Below the pieces are notes generated by a model that saw only the letters and a list, made by a program, of their open reading frames with translations, was not told the origin of the DNA and searched no databases. Shown here in pieces: positions 11,168 to 20,663 of a stretch of 48,153 nt of DNA (its first letter is position 1; every line of letters begins with the position of its first letter). Made by a program: the position numbers and the translations under genes. This DNA is from Candidatus Neomarinimicrobiota bacterium (GTDB lineage: Bacteria; Fidelibacterota; Fidelibacteria; Fidelibacterales; Fidelibacteraceae): assembly GCA_021157965.1 (NCBI GenBank), contig JAGGVO010000052.1, forward strand, positions 1-48,153, read 5' to 3'.

Positions 11168-12658
11168 TCAGCGATACCACAGCCATTCTACATTCAGAAC
11201 GAACATCCGGTCGTTTGGCATCAGATTTCGTGCAGTATAGACCTCTTGTTGAAGGGCATTTTCAATACCGGCGGAAACAATCAACGTTTTCACACGTGCA
11301 GATATTTTCCCGTTAAGGGTCCAGTCGGAAACTGTGTCTTCGGAATATTGATCTCCCGGGACAAAGCCCGGCAGTTCAGGGATAAAATAGAGAGTTCCGG
11401 GATCATCATGCGCCTGCCAGAGCCCTTCAACACGAAAGGTCAAATCCAGATTTTTAAACAGGGTTGTGCCGGCCTGAATCCCCGGCATGATATTTACTCT
11501 TCCGGGATGATACCAGAGATATTCAAGTCCGTTAAAATCCCGGTAATTCCAGGACAGACCGGCCATGAATCTTCCTTTACCGATTTCCAGGCTTCCTTCA
11601 CCCTGCATGAGGAGGGCAGGATCATCGTTCACGGCTTCTACACGGTTTGCAGAGGTATTATATTGAAGGGCATAGGTTTCGGCACGACGGTAGCTCCAAT
11701 GGTGACTGGCACGGAGCCGTACAAACCGTCCAAAGGATTTGTCAAATGCAAACCGGGCTGTAACAAAATCGGCTTCTGTTTCTGCCCCGTACCGGGTTAT
11801 CAATACAGCCGGATAGAACCGGGCTTCCAAAGCAATCTTTGCACTGAGACCCCATTGAGAGAAGGCAATCCAACCCTCATAGCAAAAACCCGATTCATTA
11901 TTGGATGAAAGGGTAAAACCTGCTTCACCAAAAGGGTGATAAAGGGTGGGAACAAGATTGACCTGTGAAAAACGAAAGTGGTCATCTCCCGGCCAGGACT
12001 CATACCATTCCCCTTCCAGATTCACTGACCACCAGTCTTTAAACAAGATCAATCCACCTACCATTTCAGCATATTGGGTGTTGCCTGTAAGCAGTGAATC
12101 GCCCCGATTCGGTTTAAAACGTCCATACTGTCCGTCCAGATATGATTCAATGTCCACATTTCCGGCGGACTTTTTCATGTGCCAGTTCAGGTTATGAGTC
12201 CGGGCATCCCATTGAGTGAATTGATTGGAGAGAGGATTATACAGTTTCGGTTTCGTGTTGACCACACTGAGTTTCAATGTATGATCCGGGCTTTGACAGA
12301 CCGCCAGAAAATCATTTTTCTTCAGTTGGCTGTATCCCTCATAAGTCAGCCATTGTCCGGACAGGATCCAGCGGTTATCTGAAGAAACGGGAGAAAAAAA
12401 CACCCGAACATCAGAGAGTCCGAAATCACCGCTTTGCCAGATTGCTTGTGAAACAGTGGAATCAACATCCGGGACCTTTCCGGGATGTTGTGAACGAACC
12501 CAGTTGCCTGAAAGGCGGGTTATGCCGTCCAGATCATCCGGTAAAAAGGTAAATTCACCCCCGTATCTTTCAATACCAAGATCAAGACATTGTGCAGGTA
12601 AAAAAGAAACAGCAATCAGAATTATCAGGATAAATCTGCAAATCATAAAAAACCTCAT
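11168..12658 (-). CDS. Outer-membrane beta-barrel resembling a plugless TonB-dependent receptor
   Basis: 496 residues from the ATG at 12658, which overlaps the stop of the preceding gene as ATGA. The longer open frame to 12787 lies inside that gene and lacks export features, so I reject it. The signal peptide (MRFFMICRFILIILIAVSFLPAQ) is followed directly by barrel-like sequence full of alternating Trp/Tyr strands. There is no recognisable plug domain or TonB box. The end, NALQQEVYTARNLMPNDRMF followed by VLNVEWLWYR, matches the last strands of TonB-dependent receptors (N-L-x-Y, P-x-R-x-F, W-x-Y). I infer an outer-membrane porin or uptake channel. Coupling to an ECF-type S component suggests passage of a vitamin or other small ligand. 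Confidence 0.7.
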   Translation of the reverse strand: MRFFMICRFILIILIAVSFLPAQCLDLGIERYGGEFTFLPDDLDGITRLSGNWVRSQHPGKVPDVDSTVSQAIWQSGDFGLSDVRVFFSPVSSDNRWILSGQWLTYEGYSQLKKNDFLAVCQSPDHTLKLSVVNTKPKLYNPLSNQFTQWDARTHNLNWHMKKSAGNVDIESYLDGQYGRFKPNRGDSLLTGNTQYAEMVGGLILFKDWWSVNLEGEWYESWPGDDHFRFSQVNLVPTLYHPFGEAGFTLSSNNESGFCYEGWIAFSQWGLSAKIALEARFYPAVLITRYGAETEADFVTARFAFDKSFGRFVRLRASHHWSYRRAETYALQYNTSANRVEAVNDDPALLMQGEGSLEIGKGRFMAGLSWNYRDFNGLEYLWYHPGRVNIMPGIQAGTTLFKNLDLTFRVEGLWQAHDDPGTLYFIPELPGFVPGDQYSEDTVSDWTLNGKISARVKTLIVSAGIENALQQEVYTARNLMPNDRMFVLNVEWLWYR

Positions 12659-13230
12659 GAATCCAGATAGTGAGTATATTTTTTGGTGACAATCTGAATT
12701 AAAATGGGCCCTAAAATGGCAAAGATCAGGGTATTTGAAAGAATATGTATTGCGTAAAAAGGAAGTCCGGAGAGGTAAGTCACCCATATTTGCGGACCGG
12801 TAAAGCCGGAAGCGAGAGGAAAGGCCAGGCTTGTCAGGCTGTCATACACAAATGTCAAAACCAGACCTGCTGCACCAAAAAGGAAAATCAGCATCTTTTT
12901 TTCGGTCCGGATATTCCGGACTACAGGCCGCAAACCAAATCCTGCGGAAGCGACGATGCCAAATCCCAGAAGTTGTGCCATTAACATGGGAGGATAGGCA
13001 AGTCCGCTTCCCATGGGGTTGGCAACGGAAAAAACAAGTTCTCCCAGAAGGGCAACAAATACACCCCGTATCCATCCCAGAAGGAGTCCGCTTAAAAATG
13101 CAATGAAAAGAATAAATTCCACGTTGGGCACGTACAAAAAGGCGTAAGCAAGTCCCCAGAACAAAGCCAAAAATACACCCGTCTCAACAAAGCGGCGGTT
13201 TCGTTCAAAATGCGCATAATTATTCGTCAT
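12655..13230 (-). CDS. ECF-type transporter S-component-like membrane protein
   Basis: 191 residues with about five to six membrane segments. The middle holds a G-L-L-L-G-W-I-R-G region and LLGELVFSVANPMGSG, reminiscent of substrate-binding (S) components of energy-coupling-factor vitamin transporters, which place small residues in the first helices and a loop before the next helix. ATG 13230 has GAGGAG five to seven bases upstream. The gene overlaps the end of the nuclease gene before it by 11 bases and the start of the barrel gene after it by ATGA. No EcfA or EcfT gene is in the window, so a shared (group II) module elsewhere would be needed. The substrate cannot be read from sequence. Confidence 0.6.
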   Translation of the reverse strand: MTNNYAHFERNRRFVETGVFLALFWGLAYAFLYVPNVEFILFIAFLSGLLLGWIRGVFVALLGELVFSVANPMGSGLAYPPMLMAQLLGFGIVASAGFGLRPVVRNIRTEKKMLIFLFGAAGLVLTFVYDSLTSLAFPLASGFTGPQIWVTYLSGLPFYAIHILSNTLIFAILGPILIQIVTKKYTHYLDS

Positions 13231-14191
13231 GGTTCTCCTCTTTCAGAATGGGTATACGGAAATAATTCCGGTTGCTGGTCCAGATGCCCTCAGTGAGATC
13301 TTCCTCCCGGATTTGTTTCATCATATTCATACGGGCATCCAGTTCATCGATATAGTGAACAAGCAGAGCCTCATGGAAAGCCGGCTTTTTGGGGGCCTGG
13401 TATTCATATTCCCCCTGGTGGGCCAGGATAATATGTTCCAGCTTCAGGGCCGTCATTTCCGGGAAGCCCTCAATTTTCCGGATATAATCCCGTATCAGGC
13501 TGTATCCCTGGACCGTATGGCCGATGAAATTTCCTTCATCGGTATAGAAATTGTCCGGGAAGCCGTTCAATTCCTCAAGTTTGCCGATATCATGGAGAAT
13601 AATGCCACTGATCAGAAGATCCCGGTTTACAGGATACACATCCGCGGTCGTTTCTGCAATGGTCACCATGGTATACACATGTTCCAGAAAGCCGCCCACA
13701 TAGGCATGATGAAGCTTCAGGCTGGCAGGATGATTTTTTATCTTTTGTTCATGATCCTTGCAAATGGCCATAGTCAGTTCTTTCAGCCAGGAATCTTCCA
13801 TCACGGATATGGCATTCAGAACCGATTCCCACATCAGTTCCCGGTCTTTTTGTGTGGCCGGAAAAAAGTGTTCCCATGAAATCCCCATCTCTTCCAGCTC
13901 CTGAGAGGTCAGCGGTTTAATGGAAACAACAATGAGTTGCAGGGTCCCCATGTATTCTTCACACTGTCCACGGACCCCCACGGGAAATCCGGTTTTCAAA
14001 ATACCGGCGAGTTCCTGTCCTTGCTCCCACACCTTGGCATTGATCCGTCCCGTCCTATCTCCCAGGATTAAATCCAGGTAGGGTTTTCCGTCACGAGTGC
14101 GCCGGAGGGTTATTTCCCGTATCATCAGCACGGAAGCAACCGGACTGTTAGCCTTGAATGCTTCCACCTTTTTCAGCTCATTCCGTGTCAT
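13220..14191 (-). CDS. yhaM: YhaM-like 3'-5' exoribonuclease (OB fold plus HD domain)
   Basis: 323 residues. An N-terminal OB-fold nucleic-acid-binding domain (~15-110, with DLILGDRTGRINAKVW) precedes a metal-dependent HD phosphohydrolase domain: HHAYVGGFLEHV, then ILHDIGKLEEL carrying the HD pair, then HIILAHQGEYEY. This order and length match YhaM/CBF1, a 3'-5' exonuclease acting on RNA and single-stranded DNA. I chose ATG 14191 because family members start with a short basic helix here and an AGAGA stretch precedes it; the frame is open to 14236 without a better site. It is the first gene of a three-gene overlapping leftward set; the link to transport may be only co-transcription. Confidence 0.85.
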   Translation of the reverse strand: MTRNELKKVEAFKANSPVASVLMIREITLRRTRDGKPYLDLILGDRTGRINAKVWEQGQELAGILKTGFPVGVRGQCEEYMGTLQLIVVSIKPLTSQELEEMGISWEHFFPATQKDRELMWESVLNAISVMEDSWLKELTMAICKDHEQKIKNHPASLKLHHAYVGGFLEHVYTMVTIAETTADVYPVNRDLLISGIILHDIGKLEELNGFPDNFYTDEGNFIGHTVQGYSLIRDYIRKIEGFPEMTALKLEHIILAHQGEYEYQAPKKPAFHEALLVHYIDELDARMNMMKQIREEDLTEGIWTSNRNYFRIPILKEENHDE

Positions 14192-14348
14192 TGCAATCTC
14201 TCGTCTTTTTCCAATCCTCAATATACATAGTAACACAAACCTTTAAAGGATTAACAAATCCCTCTTAATAGCTTAATGATTATTTTTGTATCATTCAATA
14301 AATAAAGCTGTAAAGTATTTTAGATTTTTCAAAGTTTTTTTCTATATT

Positions 14349-14431: not shown

Positions 14432-15766
14432 TTGAAATTAAGAACATTTAAAAAAGGCATACACCCGGGAGAGTACAAGGAATTCAGTCATAACAAGAAA
14501 ATTGAGCGAATGCCTCTTCCGGAGCAGGTTTATATTCCTTTGCAGCAACACATTGGTGCACCGTGTGAACCTCTTGTAAAAAAGGGGGATGCTGTAAAGA
14601 CCGGGCAGATCATCGGCCGGAGCAGTGCGTATGTTTCAGCCCCGGTCCATGCCAGTATCACAGGAGTTGTAAAAGCCATCGATAAATTCCCCCATCCTCT
14701 TGGCATGCGGGTTGAAATGGTTCATATTGAGCGGACAGGTGAAGAAGATGACTGGGAATTGCTTTCCATACCAGAAAACTGGGAAAAAGCTCCCCGGGTG
14801 GAACTGATCAAACTGATCAATGATGCCGGCATTGTAGGGATGGGAGGCGCCGCATTTCCGACCCATGTAAAACTCAATCCTCCCAAGGACAAAAAAATCG
14901 ATTCATTTATCCTGAATGGTGTGGAATGTGAGCCTTACCTGACATCGGATCACCGGCTGATGGTTGAATACACGGATCAGATACTGGCCGGCATGAACAT
15001 CATGATGTCCCTCCTTGATGTGGAGAACGGGTATATCGGCATCGAAAACAACAAACCCGATGCCATTGAGATAATGAGCAAACGCGTGAAGGATCTTGGG
15101 TACAGTTTCCAGGTGGTGCCGCTGGAAGTCAAATATCCCCAGGGTGCGGAAAAAATGCTCATTGAATCGGTGTTGCACCGGAAAGTACCTGCCGGCGGAC
15201 TCCCCATGGATGTGGGAGTTGTGGTAAACAACGTTGCCACCGCCAAAGCCGTTGCCGATGCCGTATTTGAGGGAAAACCCCTGGTGGAAAGGATTACAAC
15301 GGTGACGGGAGACGGGATTGTCCACCCGAAAAACCTTCTTACCCGTATCGGAACCCCCTTCAATGACCTGGTGGAATTCTGCGGGGGTGTAAAAGATGAA
15401 ACAACCATGGTTTTCATGGGCGGCCCCATGATGGGACAGGCACAATACGATTTATCGGTCCCCGTGATAAAAGCGGCGGGGGGAATTGTCTGCAACACAT
15501 CGAAAATGATCAAAATGGTGGAACACTTCCCCTGCATCCGTTGCGGTGCCTGTGTGGACGCGTGTCCTATGTACCTGCTCCCCACCAAGCTGGCTAAATT
15601 GACCGAACATAAAAAATATGAAGAGGCGGATAAGCTGGGCATTCAGAACTGCATTGAATGTGGTTCCTGTGCCTTTTCGTGTCCCGCCCACATTCCCCTT
15701 GTCCAATGGCTTCGTGTGGGAAAAATGCGGGTCTCCGAATTAAAACGTAAACAAAAAGCATCATAA
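14432..15766 (+). CDS. rnfC: Rnf complex subunit RnfC (NADH-binding, 2x[4Fe-4S])
   Basis: 444 residues. This peripheral subunit transfers electrons to NAD+ in the Rnf ferredoxin:NAD+ oxidoreductase. The N-terminus (KLRTFKKGIHPGEY) and a lipoyl-like beta region fit the family. GMGGAAFPTHVKL lies in the NADH/FMN-binding domain. Two ferredoxin motifs follow near residues 370-420: CIRCGACVDACP and CIECGSCAFSCP. The start is a TTG at 14432: an in-frame TGA lies at 14426-14428 and the family N-terminus begins exactly here. A GGGAG site is about ten bases upstream. It is the first gene of the operon; rnfD follows after two bases. Confidence 0.96.
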   Translation: MKLRTFKKGIHPGEYKEFSHNKKIERMPLPEQVYIPLQQHIGAPCEPLVKKGDAVKTGQIIGRSSAYVSAPVHASITGVVKAIDKFPHPLGMRVEMVHIERTGEEDDWELLSIPENWEKAPRVELIKLINDAGIVGMGGAAFPTHVKLNPPKDKKIDSFILNGVECEPYLTSDHRLMVEYTDQILAGMNIMMSLLDVENGYIGIENNKPDAIEIMSKRVKDLGYSFQVVPLEVKYPQGAEKMLIESVLHRKVPAGGLPMDVGVVVNNVATAKAVADAVFEGKPLVERITTVTGDGIVHPKNLLTRIGTPFNDLVEFCGGVKDETTMVFMGGPMMGQAQYDLSVPVIKAAGGIVCNTSKMIKMVEHFPCIRCGACVDACPMYLLPTKLAKLTEHKKYEEADKLGIQNCIECGSCAFSCPAHIPLVQWLRVGKMRVSELKRKQKAS

Positions 15767-15768
15767 AC

Positions 15769-16860
15769 ATGAGTGAACGGATGGAAAAAAACGAGAAAAC
15801 AACATCTGATCAGTCTGCCGTAACCCCGAAAAAACAGGCACCAAAGCCGAAAAAAGATCCACGGGACCGTTTATATAAACCCAAAGGGCGGCCTTTAACC
15901 ATAGCATCTTCGCCCTATTCCCAGACAAAAGACAATGTCCCGAAAATCATGTGGTATGTGAGTCTGGCTCTGGCACCGGCAGTCATCGGCGCCGTGGTCT
16001 TTTTTGGATTGAAAGCTGTTTTTATGATCAGCACATCCATTTTAGCAGCCATGGCTACGGAACTGATCATCACCCGTATCCGCAGGCAACCGGATACTCT
16101 GGATGATGGGAGCGCCTTCCTGACAGGACTCCTGCTGGCTTTAACCCTGCCCCCCACCTTTCCGATTTCAGGGTGCATTTTGGGCTCGGTATTTGCTATT
16201 GCTATCGGTAAACAGATTTTTGGCGGACTCGGATGTAATATTTTTAATCCGGCTCTCTTGGGCCGTGCCTTTTTACAGGCCAGTTTCCCCGTTAAAATGA
16301 CGACATGGGTTTTACCCCGGTATGCGGATATGAATGCCTATACCGGTGCTGTATCGCCGGATGCCATTACGGGGGCAACCCCTCTGGGGCTTTTGAAATA
16401 CGAAAAGATCCTCACAAATATCAAACCCCTTCTCATAGGTAATGTCGGCGGTTCTCTTGGAGAAACATCCGCGTTGGCCCTTCTGGCGGGAGGAATTTTT
16501 CTGCTGATCCTCCGGAATGCGGACTGGCGGATTCCCGCAGGTTTTCTGGGAAGTGTGGCTATATTCGGCGGCATTTTCTGGATGGTGGATCCGACAACCT
16601 ACCCCAGCCCCCTCTTCCACCTCCTTTCCGGAGGACTCCTGCTGGGTGCCTTTTTTATGGCCACCGATATGGTCACATCGCCCATCACTATTAAAGGAAC
16701 CTGGATTTACAGCATCGGTGCCGGATTGATTTTGGTGATTATCCGTCTCTTTGGCGGCCTGCCGGAAGGCGTAATGTATTCCATTCTGCTTATGAATGGA
16801 TTGACACCTTTGATTAACCGATTTACACGACCGAAATTTTTCGGGGAGGCTCGTGCATGA
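15769..16860 (+). CDS. rnfD: Rnf complex membrane subunit RnfD (covalent FMN)
   Basis: 363 residues, a multi-helix membrane protein carrying covalently bound FMN. The flavinylation motif is PDAITGATPLG, with the likely FMN-bearing Thr at residue 204. LPPTFPISGCILGSVFAIAIGKQ, cited in parts (LPPTFPI, GSVFAIAIGKQ), and GGLGCNIFNPALLGRAF are typical core segments of RnfD/NqrB. The N-terminus is unusual: about 45 residues rich in Lys, Pro and Gln before the conserved part, probably a cytoplasmic tail. No apbE flavin transferase is in the window. The stop overlaps the next start (ATGA). Confidence 0.95.
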   Translation: MSERMEKNEKTTSDQSAVTPKKQAPKPKKDPRDRLYKPKGRPLTIASSPYSQTKDNVPKIMWYVSLALAPAVIGAVVFFGLKAVFMISTSILAAMATELIITRIRRQPDTLDDGSAFLTGLLLALTLPPTFPISGCILGSVFAIAIGKQIFGGLGCNIFNPALLGRAFLQASFPVKMTTWVLPRYADMNAYTGAVSPDAITGATPLGLLKYEKILTNIKPLLIGNVGGSLGETSALALLAGGIFLLILRNADWRIPAGFLGSVAIFGGIFWMVDPTTYPSPLFHLLSGGLLLGAFFMATDMVTSPITIKGTWIYSIGAGLILVIIRLFGGLPEGVMYSILLMNGLTPLINRFTRPKFFGEARA

Positions 16861-17438
16861 ATACCTCATACAAAATGATACTTGTCCTGACCATCATATC
16901 AACATTGTCCGGCGGACTTCTCTCCTACTGGGATACCTATACCTCAAAAAAAATTGACGAGTACCGGCAACAGGAAATCCGGCAGGCTGTAAAGGAAGTT
17001 TTGCCGGAAACAGATGAAGAAAAAGTGAAAGAAGCCGGCGATTTTACATTTTATGTTGGATATAAAGACGGCGAAATAAAGGGCGTGGCCTTTGTAGCAG
17101 AAGGCGGTGGGTTTCAGGATATTATTTCTCTCATGGTAGGTGTAACTCCTGACTTCAGTGAATTTACCGGAATCACGGTCCTCAGCCAAAAAGAAACACC
17201 GGGACTTGGAACCAAAATCGCTAATGACCCCTCCCGTGAAGGTTGCGAAACCTGGTTCATCGACCAGTTCCGGGGTAAAAATACCGGCAATCTGACCTAT
17301 GTGAAAAACCAAAAAGCAAACGGCGATTCGGAAATTGAAGCCATCACAGGAGCTACCATTTCCTCCAAGGCGGTCATTACCATTTTAAATGAAACCGTTC
17401 CCACCGCAAAATCGTCGTTTGAATCCATAAATCAGTAG
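16857..17438 (+). CDS. rnfG: Rnf complex subunit RnfG (covalent FMN)
   Basis: 193 residues. One N-terminal membrane helix (residues ~7-26) anchors an extracytoplasmic FMN-binding domain. The motif EAITGATISSKAV places the FMN-linked Thr at about residue 167, as in RnfG/NqrC. SQKETPGLGTKIA is the second family signature. It starts with an ATGA overlap on rnfD and is followed after seven bases by rnfE. It passes electrons between the flavins of the complex in the membrane and periplasm. Confidence 0.95.
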   Translation: MNTSYKMILVLTIISTLSGGLLSYWDTYTSKKIDEYRQQEIRQAVKEVLPETDEEKVKEAGDFTFYVGYKDGEIKGVAFVAEGGGFQDIISLMVGVTPDFSEFTGITVLSQKETPGLGTKIANDPSREGCETWFIDQFRGKNTGNLTYVKNQKANGDSEIEAITGATISSKAVITILNETVPTAKSSFESINQ

Positions 17439-17445
17439 GTGAACT

Positions 17446-18054
17446 ATGGCAAAAAATGTATCACTGATTGAAGATTTTACCAAGGGTATCTGGAAAGAGA
17501 ATCCCATTCTTATTGCCCTGTTGGGACTTTGTCCAACCCTTGCCGTAACCATTTCCGTCGAGAATGGGCTGGCTATGGGACTCGCAGCTTCATTTGTCCT
17601 GATTTGTTCCAGCACCCTCATTTCATTACTCAGGAACATGATTCCAAAACAGGTCCGGATCGCCAGTTTTATCGTGATCATTGCGACCTTTGTAACCATT
17701 GCGGATCGATATCTGGCAGCATTTTATCCGGAAATCAGTAAAAATCTGGGACCCTTTATTCCACTGATTATTGTGAATTGTATGATTCTGGGGCGCCAGG
17801 AAGCCTTTGCATCAAAAAACGGAGTAGGACGGTCTATCCTGGATGCCCTTGGAATGGGGATCGGATTTACTCTTGTTCTTTTGATACTCAGTGCTATCCG
17901 TGAACTTCTGGGCTCAGGAACTATCATGGGATATCAGGTCATGTGGGATTCTTTCAGCCCGTGGATGGTGATGATCCTGCCACCGGGGGCTTTCCTTACG
18001 CTGGGACTCATGATCGGCGCATCAAACTGGATTAATGACAGGAGGACACGCTGA
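17446..18054 (+). CDS. rnfE: Rnf complex membrane subunit RnfE
   Basis: 202 residues with six predicted membrane helices. It belongs to the RnfA/RnfE/NqrD/NqrE family, whose paired members form an intramembrane iron site. Two conserved Cys motifs are present: GLCPTLAV early and IVNCMILGRQEAFA in the middle. RELLGSGTIMG is also a family motif. ATG 17446 follows GTAGGTGAACT, a weak but usable binding site. The last base of its stop overlaps the rnfA start (TGATG). Confidence 0.95.
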   Translation: MAKNVSLIEDFTKGIWKENPILIALLGLCPTLAVTISVENGLAMGLAASFVLICSSTLISLLRNMIPKQVRIASFIVIIATFVTIADRYLAAFYPEISKNLGPFIPLIIVNCMILGRQEAFASKNGVGRSILDALGMGIGFTLVLLILSAIRELLGSGTIMGYQVMWDSFSPWMVMILPPGAFLTLGLMIGASNWINDRRTR

Positions 18055-18626
18055 TGGAACTGCTGGTAATTTTTATCTCAGCTGCTATTGTTAATAATTT
18101 CGTTCTTAGCCAGTTTTTGGGGATTTGTCCCTTTGTAGGTGTATCAAAACGTGTGGATTCAGCCGTCAGCATGGGAATGGCGGTGACATTCGTCATGACG
18201 ATTACAGCTGTAGTGACCTGGCTGATTTACCATCTTTTGCTGGTCCCCTACAATCTGGAAATTCTCCAGTACGTCTCCTTTATTCTGGTAATTGCTTCAC
18301 TGGTCCAACTGGTGGAAATGTTTATCCGGAAAGTCAGTAAACCCCTCTATGATGCCCTGGGGATTTTTCTTCCCCTGATTACTACCAATTGTGCAATTCT
18401 GGGACTTGCACTCATTTCGGTTCTCAGGGAGTATAACTTCATGGAAAGCCTGGTATACGGAATCGGAGCCGGTGCAGGATTTACCCTGGCCCTGGTGATT
18501 ATGGCAGGTATCCGTGAAGAGCTGGAACTGGCGGATATCCCCAAACATTTTCAGGGAGCGGGCATTACCATGATCATTGCCGGCAGTCTTGCCCTGGCCT
18601 TTATGGGATTTGCAGGTTTAATTTAG
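18054..18626 (+). CDS. rnfA: Rnf complex membrane subunit RnfA
   Basis: 190 residues, six membrane helices, paralogue of RnfE in inverted topology. The opening NNFVLSQFLGICPFVGVSK and the later ITTNCAILG each supply one Cys, which with the two of RnfE would hold the intramembrane [2Fe-2S] or iron centre known from Rnf and Na+-NQR structures. It overlaps rnfE by one base. Unlike the usual order, it is not followed directly by rnfB: a 48-base gap and a small Cys-rich gene come first. Confidence 0.95.
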   Translation: MELLVIFISAAIVNNFVLSQFLGICPFVGVSKRVDSAVSMGMAVTFVMTITAVVTWLIYHLLLVPYNLEILQYVSFILVIASLVQLVEMFIRKVSKPLYDALGIFLPLITTNCAILGLALISVLREYNFMESLVYGIGAGAGFTLALVIMAGIREELELADIPKHFQGAGITMIIAGSLALAFMGFAGLI

Positions 18627-18674
18627 GAACGTCAACCCGGTGCGGTCGTTCAAGGGAAAAAGTGAGGAAATGAC

Positions 18675-18887
18675 ATGAACATCACAAGCATCATCACCAC
18701 TATTGTCGTCATGATGGCAGTGGGACTCATATATTCTCTTGGCATGGTTATCATGAACAAAACCTTTTACCGTAAGAAAGGGAATTATCCCGATGCAGAC
18801 TGCCTTTCGTCCGGCAGTGCCTGCAGTTCCTGCGGTATTACGGGGTGTTCGATCAATCCCGCCCGGACTGAAAAGACAGAGGAATAA
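18675..18887 (+). CDS. Small single-helix membrane protein with four-Cys tail, inside the rnf operon
   Basis: 70 residues, not recognised as a standard Rnf subunit. Residues ~6-27 form one membrane helix, followed by a basic patch (FYRKKG) that should face the cytoplasm, and a Cys cluster at residues 43, 50, 53 and 58 (C-x6-C-x2-C-x4-C, around ACSSCGITGC). A good site, GAGGAA, lies before ATG 18675, and rnfB starts two bases after its stop, so it is translated as part of the operon. Size, topology and Cys number recall NqrM, the small maturation protein of Na+-NQR, which helps insert iron at the NqrD/NqrE site. RnfA and RnfE are the homologues of that pair. The Cys block also resembles the RnfB start, so a partial RnfB duplication is an alternative. 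Confidence 0.75.
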   Translation: MNITSIITTIVVMMAVGLIYSLGMVIMNKTFYRKKGNYPDADCLSSGSACSSCGITGCSINPARTEKTEE

Positions 18888-18889
18888 AT

Positions 18890-19711
18890 ATGGATTTAAG
18901 TGCCATTCTGATTTCCATGGGTGGTATGGGCGGAATCGGCCTGGTGTTTGCCACCGGACTTGCCATTGCCAATAAAAAACTTCATGTGGAAGAAGACCCC
19001 CGTATTGAAAAAGTAAACGATGCCCTTCCCGGAGCCAATTGTGGCGGGTGCGGATTTGCCGGGTGTATGAACTTTGCCGAAAATGTTGTAAAAGGAAACG
19101 CACCCATCAACGGGTGTCCCGTCGGCGGTGTGGAAACTGCAAATAAGATCGCCCAAATCCTTGGAGTAAAAGTCGAAGCGGGAGAACCGCTGAAAGCCCG
19201 GGTCCTCTGTCAGGGCGGATTGAATGAGATGGCCGTTAAAGGCGAATATATGGGACTTGAATCCTGTGTGGCAGCTCATATCAGCGGGGGTGCCACGAAA
19301 CTCTGTGAATGGGGTTGCCTGGGATTTGGTGATTGTGTGGATGCATGTCCCTTCGATGCCATGTATATGAGTGAAAACCGCCTTCCGGTGGTCATTGAAG
19401 ATAAATGCGTGGGATGCGGTAAGTGTGCCGAAGCCTGTCCCAGAAACATTATTGAACTCCATCCTGTAAATCACCGGGTTTTTGTAAAATGCAAGAACCA
19501 GGATGCGGGTAAATATTCCCGACTTGTCTGTACACGGGCCTGTATCGGCTGCGGAATTTGTGTTCGGGAAGCCGGTGATGATATGATGTATCTGGATAAC
19601 GGACTTGCCCATTTCAACTACGATAAATGGGGAGACCGCAACGAACTTCCTACTCAAAAATGTCCCAACCATGTGTTGGTAAGCCTGGATGAAGAAGGAA
19701 CCGACTCCTGA
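18890..19711 (+). CDS. rnfB: Rnf complex ferredoxin-type subunit RnfB
   Basis: 273 residues. This subunit receives electrons from reduced ferredoxin. A membrane helix (~8-27) precedes the four-Cys domain ALPGANCGGCGFAGC with a further Cys near residue 76. Two [4Fe-4S] motifs follow: CLGFGDCVDACP and CVGCGKCAEACP. A further Cys-rich part, CTRACIGCGICVRE, is present. A GAGGAATAA site lies just before ATG 18890. The stop overlaps the start of the RseC-like gene (TGATG). The number of Cys motifs is like that of clostridial-type RnfB. Confidence 0.95.
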   Translation: MDLSAILISMGGMGGIGLVFATGLAIANKKLHVEEDPRIEKVNDALPGANCGGCGFAGCMNFAENVVKGNAPINGCPVGGVETANKIAQILGVKVEAGEPLKARVLCQGGLNEMAVKGEYMGLESCVAAHISGGATKLCEWGCLGFGDCVDACPFDAMYMSENRLPVVIEDKCVGCGKCAEACPRNIIELHPVNHRVFVKCKNQDAGKYSRLVCTRACIGCGICVREAGDDMMYLDNGLAHFNYDKWGDRNELPTQKCPNHVLVSLDEEGTDS

Positions 19712-20229: not shown

Positions 20230-20663
20230 TATTTTTTGACTAATACATACGAATTGTGAATCATGGAAATATTTTCGGAAAAATTGTTAATAAAAAAATG
20301 ACCTTAAATGAATATGGGGAAATTTCACAAAAGTGCCGGCATGATTTACCTATACATATAAATTATTGTTATTTAAGGGAATATGTTATTATGCCAGATC
20401 ATATTCATGGAATAATTGAAATAAAACATTCAAAAGATGTTTTGGATTCTAAGATGTTAAATTTTAAAAAAATTCCAAGACATCAAGGATTACCAAATAT
20501 TATCAGATCATTTAAATCTGCATCATCCAGGTTAATTCATCAAGCAGGTTTTGAAAATTTTCAATGGCAGAAATCATATTATGACATAATTATAAAATCG
20601 CATCACGAATTAATTCAATACGTTAAATATATAAATAACAATCCAATAAACTGGAAAAAGTAA
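20230..20663 (+). pseudogene. Decayed REP-associated tyrosine transposase (TnpA_REP/RAYT)
   Basis: The body, read from a GTG at 20256 to the stop at 20663 (135 codons), is a Y1-type HUH transposase: EYVIMPDHIHGIIEI carries the H-I-H metal-binding motif, WQKSYYDIII the catalytic Tyr region, and YVKYINNNPINWKK the family end. The N-terminus is broken. The conserved YF-T strand can still be read at 20230-20259 (YFLTNTYEL then stop), but in a different frame, and an in-frame TAA at 20241 blocks upstream extension. The normal C-terminal tail is also short. Base composition is much more AT-rich than all neighbouring genes, a sign of transfer. It was probably a single-copy nuclease that mobilised REP palindromes. 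Confidence 0.8.

Follow-up and report, generated by a model that had tools for sequence, protein, structure and literature searches.

The gene located between rnfA and rnfB in the window (the whole stretch of DNA analyzed, 48,153 nucleotides from a Candidatus Neomarinimicrobiota bacterium) encodes a 70-residue protein, hereafter the 70-mer, which by its sequence is related to RnfB, in truncated and diverged form, over the membrane helix and the first half of the FeS domain. The rnf operon encodes Rnf, a membrane complex that conserves energy, and the constant location and purifying selection of the 70-mer gene are those expected of an accessory gene of this operon. An iron or Fe-S role specific to the genus, exerted at RnfA/RnfE, is possible.

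The ORF has an ATG start, 70 codons, and a TAA stop. Genes in the region are arranged in the order rnfC-D-G-E-A-[70-mer]-B-rseC, with 48 nt between the end of rnfA and the start of the 70-mer gene and 2 nt between its stop and the start of rnfB (Table 1). The initial annotation had described a 70-codon gene with its own ribosome-binding site at this position, and this was borne out by the ORF and the GAGGA sequence. It was silent on the RseC-family gene following rnfB, the likeness of the 70-mer to the start of RnfB, and the NQR operon in the genome. Just 3′ of the rnf operon, in AT-rich sequence at 20256–20663 (+), is an ORF with a GTG start for a Y1/IS200-like (REP-associated type) transposase. 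The ORF at 12655–13230 (−) encodes a 191-residue membrane protein with zero Pfam matches; its neighbor at 13220–14236 (−) encodes an OB-fold/HD-domain protein (YhaM-like).

Table 1. Positions of the rnf genes and of the features of the 70-mer in the window
Feature	Position	Strand	Evidence
Putative mini-RnfB gene (feature under study), 70 aa	18675..18887	+	ORF; orthologues in 6/6 genus genomes; RnfB N-terminus profile match
Shine-Dalgarno-like GAGGA, ending 6 nt before the ATG of the 70-mer	18664..18668	+	Sequence
Membrane helix, residues about 5-27, equivalent of RnfB TM1	18687..18755	+	Hydrophobicity; RnfB alignment; AlphaFold helix 3-36
C43-x6-C50-x2-C53-x4-C58	18801..18848	+	hhalign alignment: C50/C53/C58 align with the first three RnfB FeS (B8) ligand Cys; C43 new
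rnfC	14432..15766	+	TIGR01945, 564 bits
rnfD	15769..16860	+	TIGR01946
rnfG	16857..17438	+	TIGR01947, slightly under its cut-off; PF04205 FMN_bind
rnfE	17446..18054	+	TIGR01948
rnfA	18054..18626	+	TIGR01943
rnfB, 273 aa, full length, including a complete four-Cys FeS domain of its own	18890..19711	+	TIGR01944, PF04060
RseC-family gene without CxxCx5C, zero Cys in this genome	19711..20157	+	PF04246, 43.6 bits, match limited to profile positions 34-122

All six genomes of a single genus of uncultured, anaerobic Neomarinimicrobiota carry an orthologue of the 70-mer, in a constant position between rnfA and rnfB and with identities of 67–94%. Conservation of the Cys residues among homologues had been proposed as a check, and all four were invariant across the six genomes. 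Values of dN/dS (Nei-Gojobori, pairs with unsaturated dS, six species) ranged from 0.07 to 0.19, indicating purifying selection. A chance ORF was excluded by the same-place orthologues, the invariant Cys, and these ratios.

A phylum-wide six-frame search detected no orthologue in the other 239 of the 245 Neomarinimicrobiota genomes. At the loci read in sister genera, rnfA directly adjoined rnfB with no 70-mer, and no comparable small gene was present in any frame of the unusually long rnfA-rnfB gaps read elsewhere in the phylum. One of these gaps contained an unrelated ORF similar to 23S intervening-sequence proteins, another contained a GxxExxY-type ORF (identified by eye), and the others were empty. 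No homologues were found in the plasmids searched, scanning GTDB with two short peptide patterns gave matches from the same genus only, and solved structures compared with the 70-residue family yielded nothing at E < 0.1. The expected occurrence of homologues beside rnf operons was seen within the genus (6/6) but not at any rnf locus inspected elsewhere in the phylum; because of this absence, the 70-mer is not a general Rnf maturation factor.

Searching the 70-mer against Pfam profiles gave zero family matches. The protein has a single hydrophobic segment, followed by a basic stretch (K29/R33/K34/K35) and a four-Cys part, which was placed on the cytoplasmic side as judged by charge. The one helix, basic patch, and C-x6-C-x2-C-x4-C arrangement noted at first were thus all seen in the sequence. 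AlphaFold predicted a helix over residues 3–36, with pLDDT values of about 73–90 over residues 1–30, and values below 50 from residue 34 in the Cys tail.

A profile of 40 RnfB N-termini, from which the genus of the 70-mer was excluded, scored 22–32 bits on each of the six 70-mers. The score for the 70-mer of the window, 26.8 bits, was reached by none of 20,000 segment-shuffled sequences, whether the Cys were fixed or free; taken singly, the helix scored 19.4 and the tail 11.4 bits. Used as decoys, 20 NqrM proteins of the phylum scored no higher than 0.8 bits against this profile. Comparison of the 70-mer family with the RnfB N-terminus by hhalign gave a probability of 97.6% and an E value of 4e-12 (referring to a search of one profile) over residues 2–59. 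The NCBIfam RnfB models were the top, though weak, matches for three family members, and nearly all non-orthologous matches in the six-frame search of the phylum were the first 60 residues of RnfB, the best non-orthologue. In the alignment, DALPGANCGGCGFAGC of RnfB stands opposite DDCLPSESLCSSCGITGC of the most divergent 70-mer, and the helix residues M13, G17, L18, N28, and K29 of the 70-mer are common to RnfB. The profile, shuffle, and hhalign results together are the grounds for regarding the 70-mer as a relative of RnfB.

In addition to these helix residues, the 70-mer has C-x2-C-G-x2-G-C and the cytoplasmic side in common with the RnfB N-terminus, which is made up of TM1 and PF04060 (the B8 domain of Acetobacterium woodii; PDB 9eri-9erl, also 7zc6 and 8ahx). 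The first three ligands of the RnfB pattern C-x2-C-x4-C-x16-C are present in the 70-mer, and the fourth, about 17 residues beyond the third, would fall past the truncation; PF04060, the model of the RnfB FeS domain, is unmatched by the 70-mer. Unlike RnfB, the 70-mer ends after the third Cys, without the distal ligand (x16-C-P) and the ferredoxin chain. The polyferredoxin domain accepting electrons from ferredoxin is therefore absent from it, and a separate complete rnfB follows. It also differs from RnfB in having an extra Cys seven residues before the CxxC, Cys43, at approximately the Ala or Val position of RnfB ‘DALPGANC’. Cys43 appears to replace the ligand lost by truncation. Since the gene lies immediately 5′ of rnfB, it may have arisen by partial tandem duplication. 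When the first 60 residues were used to build a tree, the 70-mer fell on a long branch outside all RnfB, and the tree neither dated the duplication nor showed its source.

RseC-family genes were detected in 57 of the 65 rnfC-positive genomes of the phylum; in the remaining eight, the contigs examined end near the rnf genes, so real absence of RseC is not established there. The motif CxxCx5C was present in RseC of all 55 RseC genomes outside the genus versus none of the 6 inside, where a conserved QRSPSRYSLPLFP-type stretch stands in its place. The Cys-less RseC had dN/dS values of 0.05–0.12, indicating that the rest of the protein is under selection. In Escherichia coli, RseC contains a cytoplasmic CX5CX2CX5C, its N-domain is able to hold an O2-sensitive Fe-S cluster, its function is lost only once two of the three conserved Cys are gone, and RsxB and RsxD are the partners that it contacts (PMC11729352). 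In Clostridium ljungdahlii, rseC is essential for autotrophy (PMC9124969). The job of RseC is disputed. It has been described as regulating rnf expression in C. ljungdahlii, and Rnf assembly without RseC has been reported in some hosts (PMC11729352).

The N-terminal Cys domain of RseC (RnfF; PF04246) resembles the 70-mer in being small and cytoplasmic and in having a lone Cys, a CxxC, and then a Cys; RseC, an Rnf accessory, is likewise membrane-anchored and encoded in the same operon. It differs in having two helices, with the motif N-terminal to them, whereas the motif of the 70-mer is C-terminal, and in showing no sequence kinship. The PF04246 profile did not match the 70-mer, and RseC kinship was ruled out by hhalign (22.7%, 1.0 bit). 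In the genus where RseC lost its Cys, the operon also encodes the 70-mer, whose four Cys are similarly spaced and, by charge, lie on the same side of the membrane; the one may thus have taken the place of the other. This link is a correlation and suggestive only, since it represents a single event on one branch, and its cause is confounded by NQR, which is present in the genus and missing from the sister genera. Nevertheless, because the Cys cluster of RseC was lost in the same genus, a genus-specific iron or Fe-S role of the 70-mer at RnfA/RnfE becomes more plausible.

Cryo-electron microscopy of the A. woodii complex showed that the B8 domain (RnfB residues 30–100) is a mobile module with one [4Fe4S] cluster, tethered through TM1; by inserting between RnfA and RnfE, it delivers electrons to their membrane-buried [2Fe2S] cluster AE1 (PMC11889175). 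Because the B8 domain docks there, the 70-mer would most likely dock at the cytoplasmic mouth of RnfA/RnfE, beside the buried cluster. Action near the RnfA/RnfE cluster, as put forward in the initial annotation, is upheld as an idea, by the different route that the 70-mer keeps the B8 docking module, with docking itself a prediction.

We tentatively favor, at somewhat below an even chance, the reading that the 70-mer is a docking mini-RnfB providing the iron or Fe-S site that RseC no longer has. The N-terminus of rnfB would have been copied in part, with truncation removing the fourth ligand Cys, and the site would have been rebuilt from three old Cys and one new Cys. The product would hold a TM1-like helix in the membrane and the first half of the mobile B8 FeS domain on the cytoplasmic side. 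By analogy with B8, its Cys part may dock at the RnfA/RnfE mouth next to the buried [2Fe-2S], and during assembly it may hold an iron or Fe-S unit and pass this to RnfA/RnfE, or keep the cluster reduced. It would thereby substitute in trans for the cytoplasmic Cys site lost from RseC of the genus. We infer the docking site, the metal binding, the delivery, and the hand-over from RseC alike. No account of how Rnf acquires its membrane-buried [2Fe-2S] cluster was found in the literature, and a natural genus with a Cys-less RseC and an apparently RnfB-derived four-Cys mini-protein next to rnfB provides a testable handle on cluster assembly and on the job of RseC.

A wider proposition, which we consider rather unlikely, is that RseC is the Rnf counterpart of NqrM and that its Cys site helps to build the RnfA/RnfE [2Fe-2S]; in this genus, the site would have disappeared from RseC and arisen anew on a shortened RnfB, the domain of which already docks there. 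The RseC-to-AE1 role that this presupposes is itself hypothetical.

The main alternative is that the 70-mer is a seventh structural subunit of Rnf, serving either as a second B8-like head that offers electrons a further way into the RnfA/RnfE cluster or as a stub that competes with the B8 domain of RnfB and throttles the flow. This is a serious possibility, although on the unlikely side. The source domain itself passes electrons to AE1 (PMC11889175), the 70-mer keeps a four-Cys site, and, because helix residues are shared with RnfB, it may sit at the position of TM1 of RnfB. However, with the ferredoxin chain of RnfB missing, the 70-mer has no obvious electron donor, its Cys spacing is unlike that of the RnfB 4Fe-4S site, and the loss of Cys from RseC would be left unexplained. 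If part of the mature complex, it would bring the number of Rnf subunits to seven and could inform on control of the mobile B8 head.

Besides Rnf, a complete nqrABCDEF operon occurs in the genus (loci L100, L101, and L103; contig C43 of genome G000 and relatives), with no nqrM beside it; the sister genera lack this operon. Five of the six genomes carry nqrA, which no sister genus was found to have, and no PF04400 (NqrM) match was found in the whole genus, the genome of the window included. These findings would fit the 70-mer serving mainly the NQR of the same cell, its rnf location being a chance of origin. We regard this as improbable. NqrM is held to be necessary for insertion of the NQR [2Fe-2S] (PMC12174285), yet 34 genomes of the phylum combine Rnf with NQR, and as none of them carries NqrM, their NQR must mature without a recognizable NqrM. 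In 29 of these, other than those of the genus, the 70-mer is also absent, so NQR there needs neither protein. Moreover, one genome (G006) carries the 70-mer without a detected NQR, and both location and homology of the 70-mer favor Rnf. NqrM exceeded the cut-off in 38 genomes of the phylum, none of which had rnfC or RseC, a pattern of exclusion confounded by relatedness, with NqrM confined to few families. Shared ancestry may explain it.

It is very improbable that the 70-mer genuinely belongs to the NqrM family (DUF539, PF04400), as a diverged member serving Rnf. The two have the same plan of about 70 residues, with one N-terminal helix, a basic patch, and four conserved cytoplasmic Cys around a CxxC, several NqrM of the phylum reading C-x9-C-x2-C-x6-C, and their partner complexes are homologous. 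However, PF04400 did not match the 70-mer at E ≤ 1, and hhalign against 20 NqrM of the same phylum gave a probability of 33% and −2.3 bits, equaled by half of the shuffled sequences. The Cys spacing differs, the SCGG motif of NqrM is absent from the 70-mer, and NqrM is expected beside the nqr operon, whereas the 70-mer sits in the rnf operon, with no such gene at any NQR locus of the genus; in the phylum, NqrM occurs in NQR genomes without Rnf and never in Rnf genomes. The label “NqrM-like” was therefore dropped in the sense of kinship, which was rejected on profile comparisons controlled by shuffling and by NqrM decoys, the clear homology being to RnfB instead. The likeness to NqrM is at most an analogy of function.

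A decaying or functionless leftover of a partial rnfB duplication is hardly credible: the truncated copy does lie immediately 5′ of rnfB and in one genus only, but the selection test over six species contradicts decay, the Cys are invariant with the new one apparently compensating for the lost ligand, and the start region and frame are retained.

A second, unusual Rnf-like cluster was observed in another family (locus L025, contig C28 of genome G231), with a 707-residue frame starting like RnfB and a distant rnfC homologue approximately 3 kb off.
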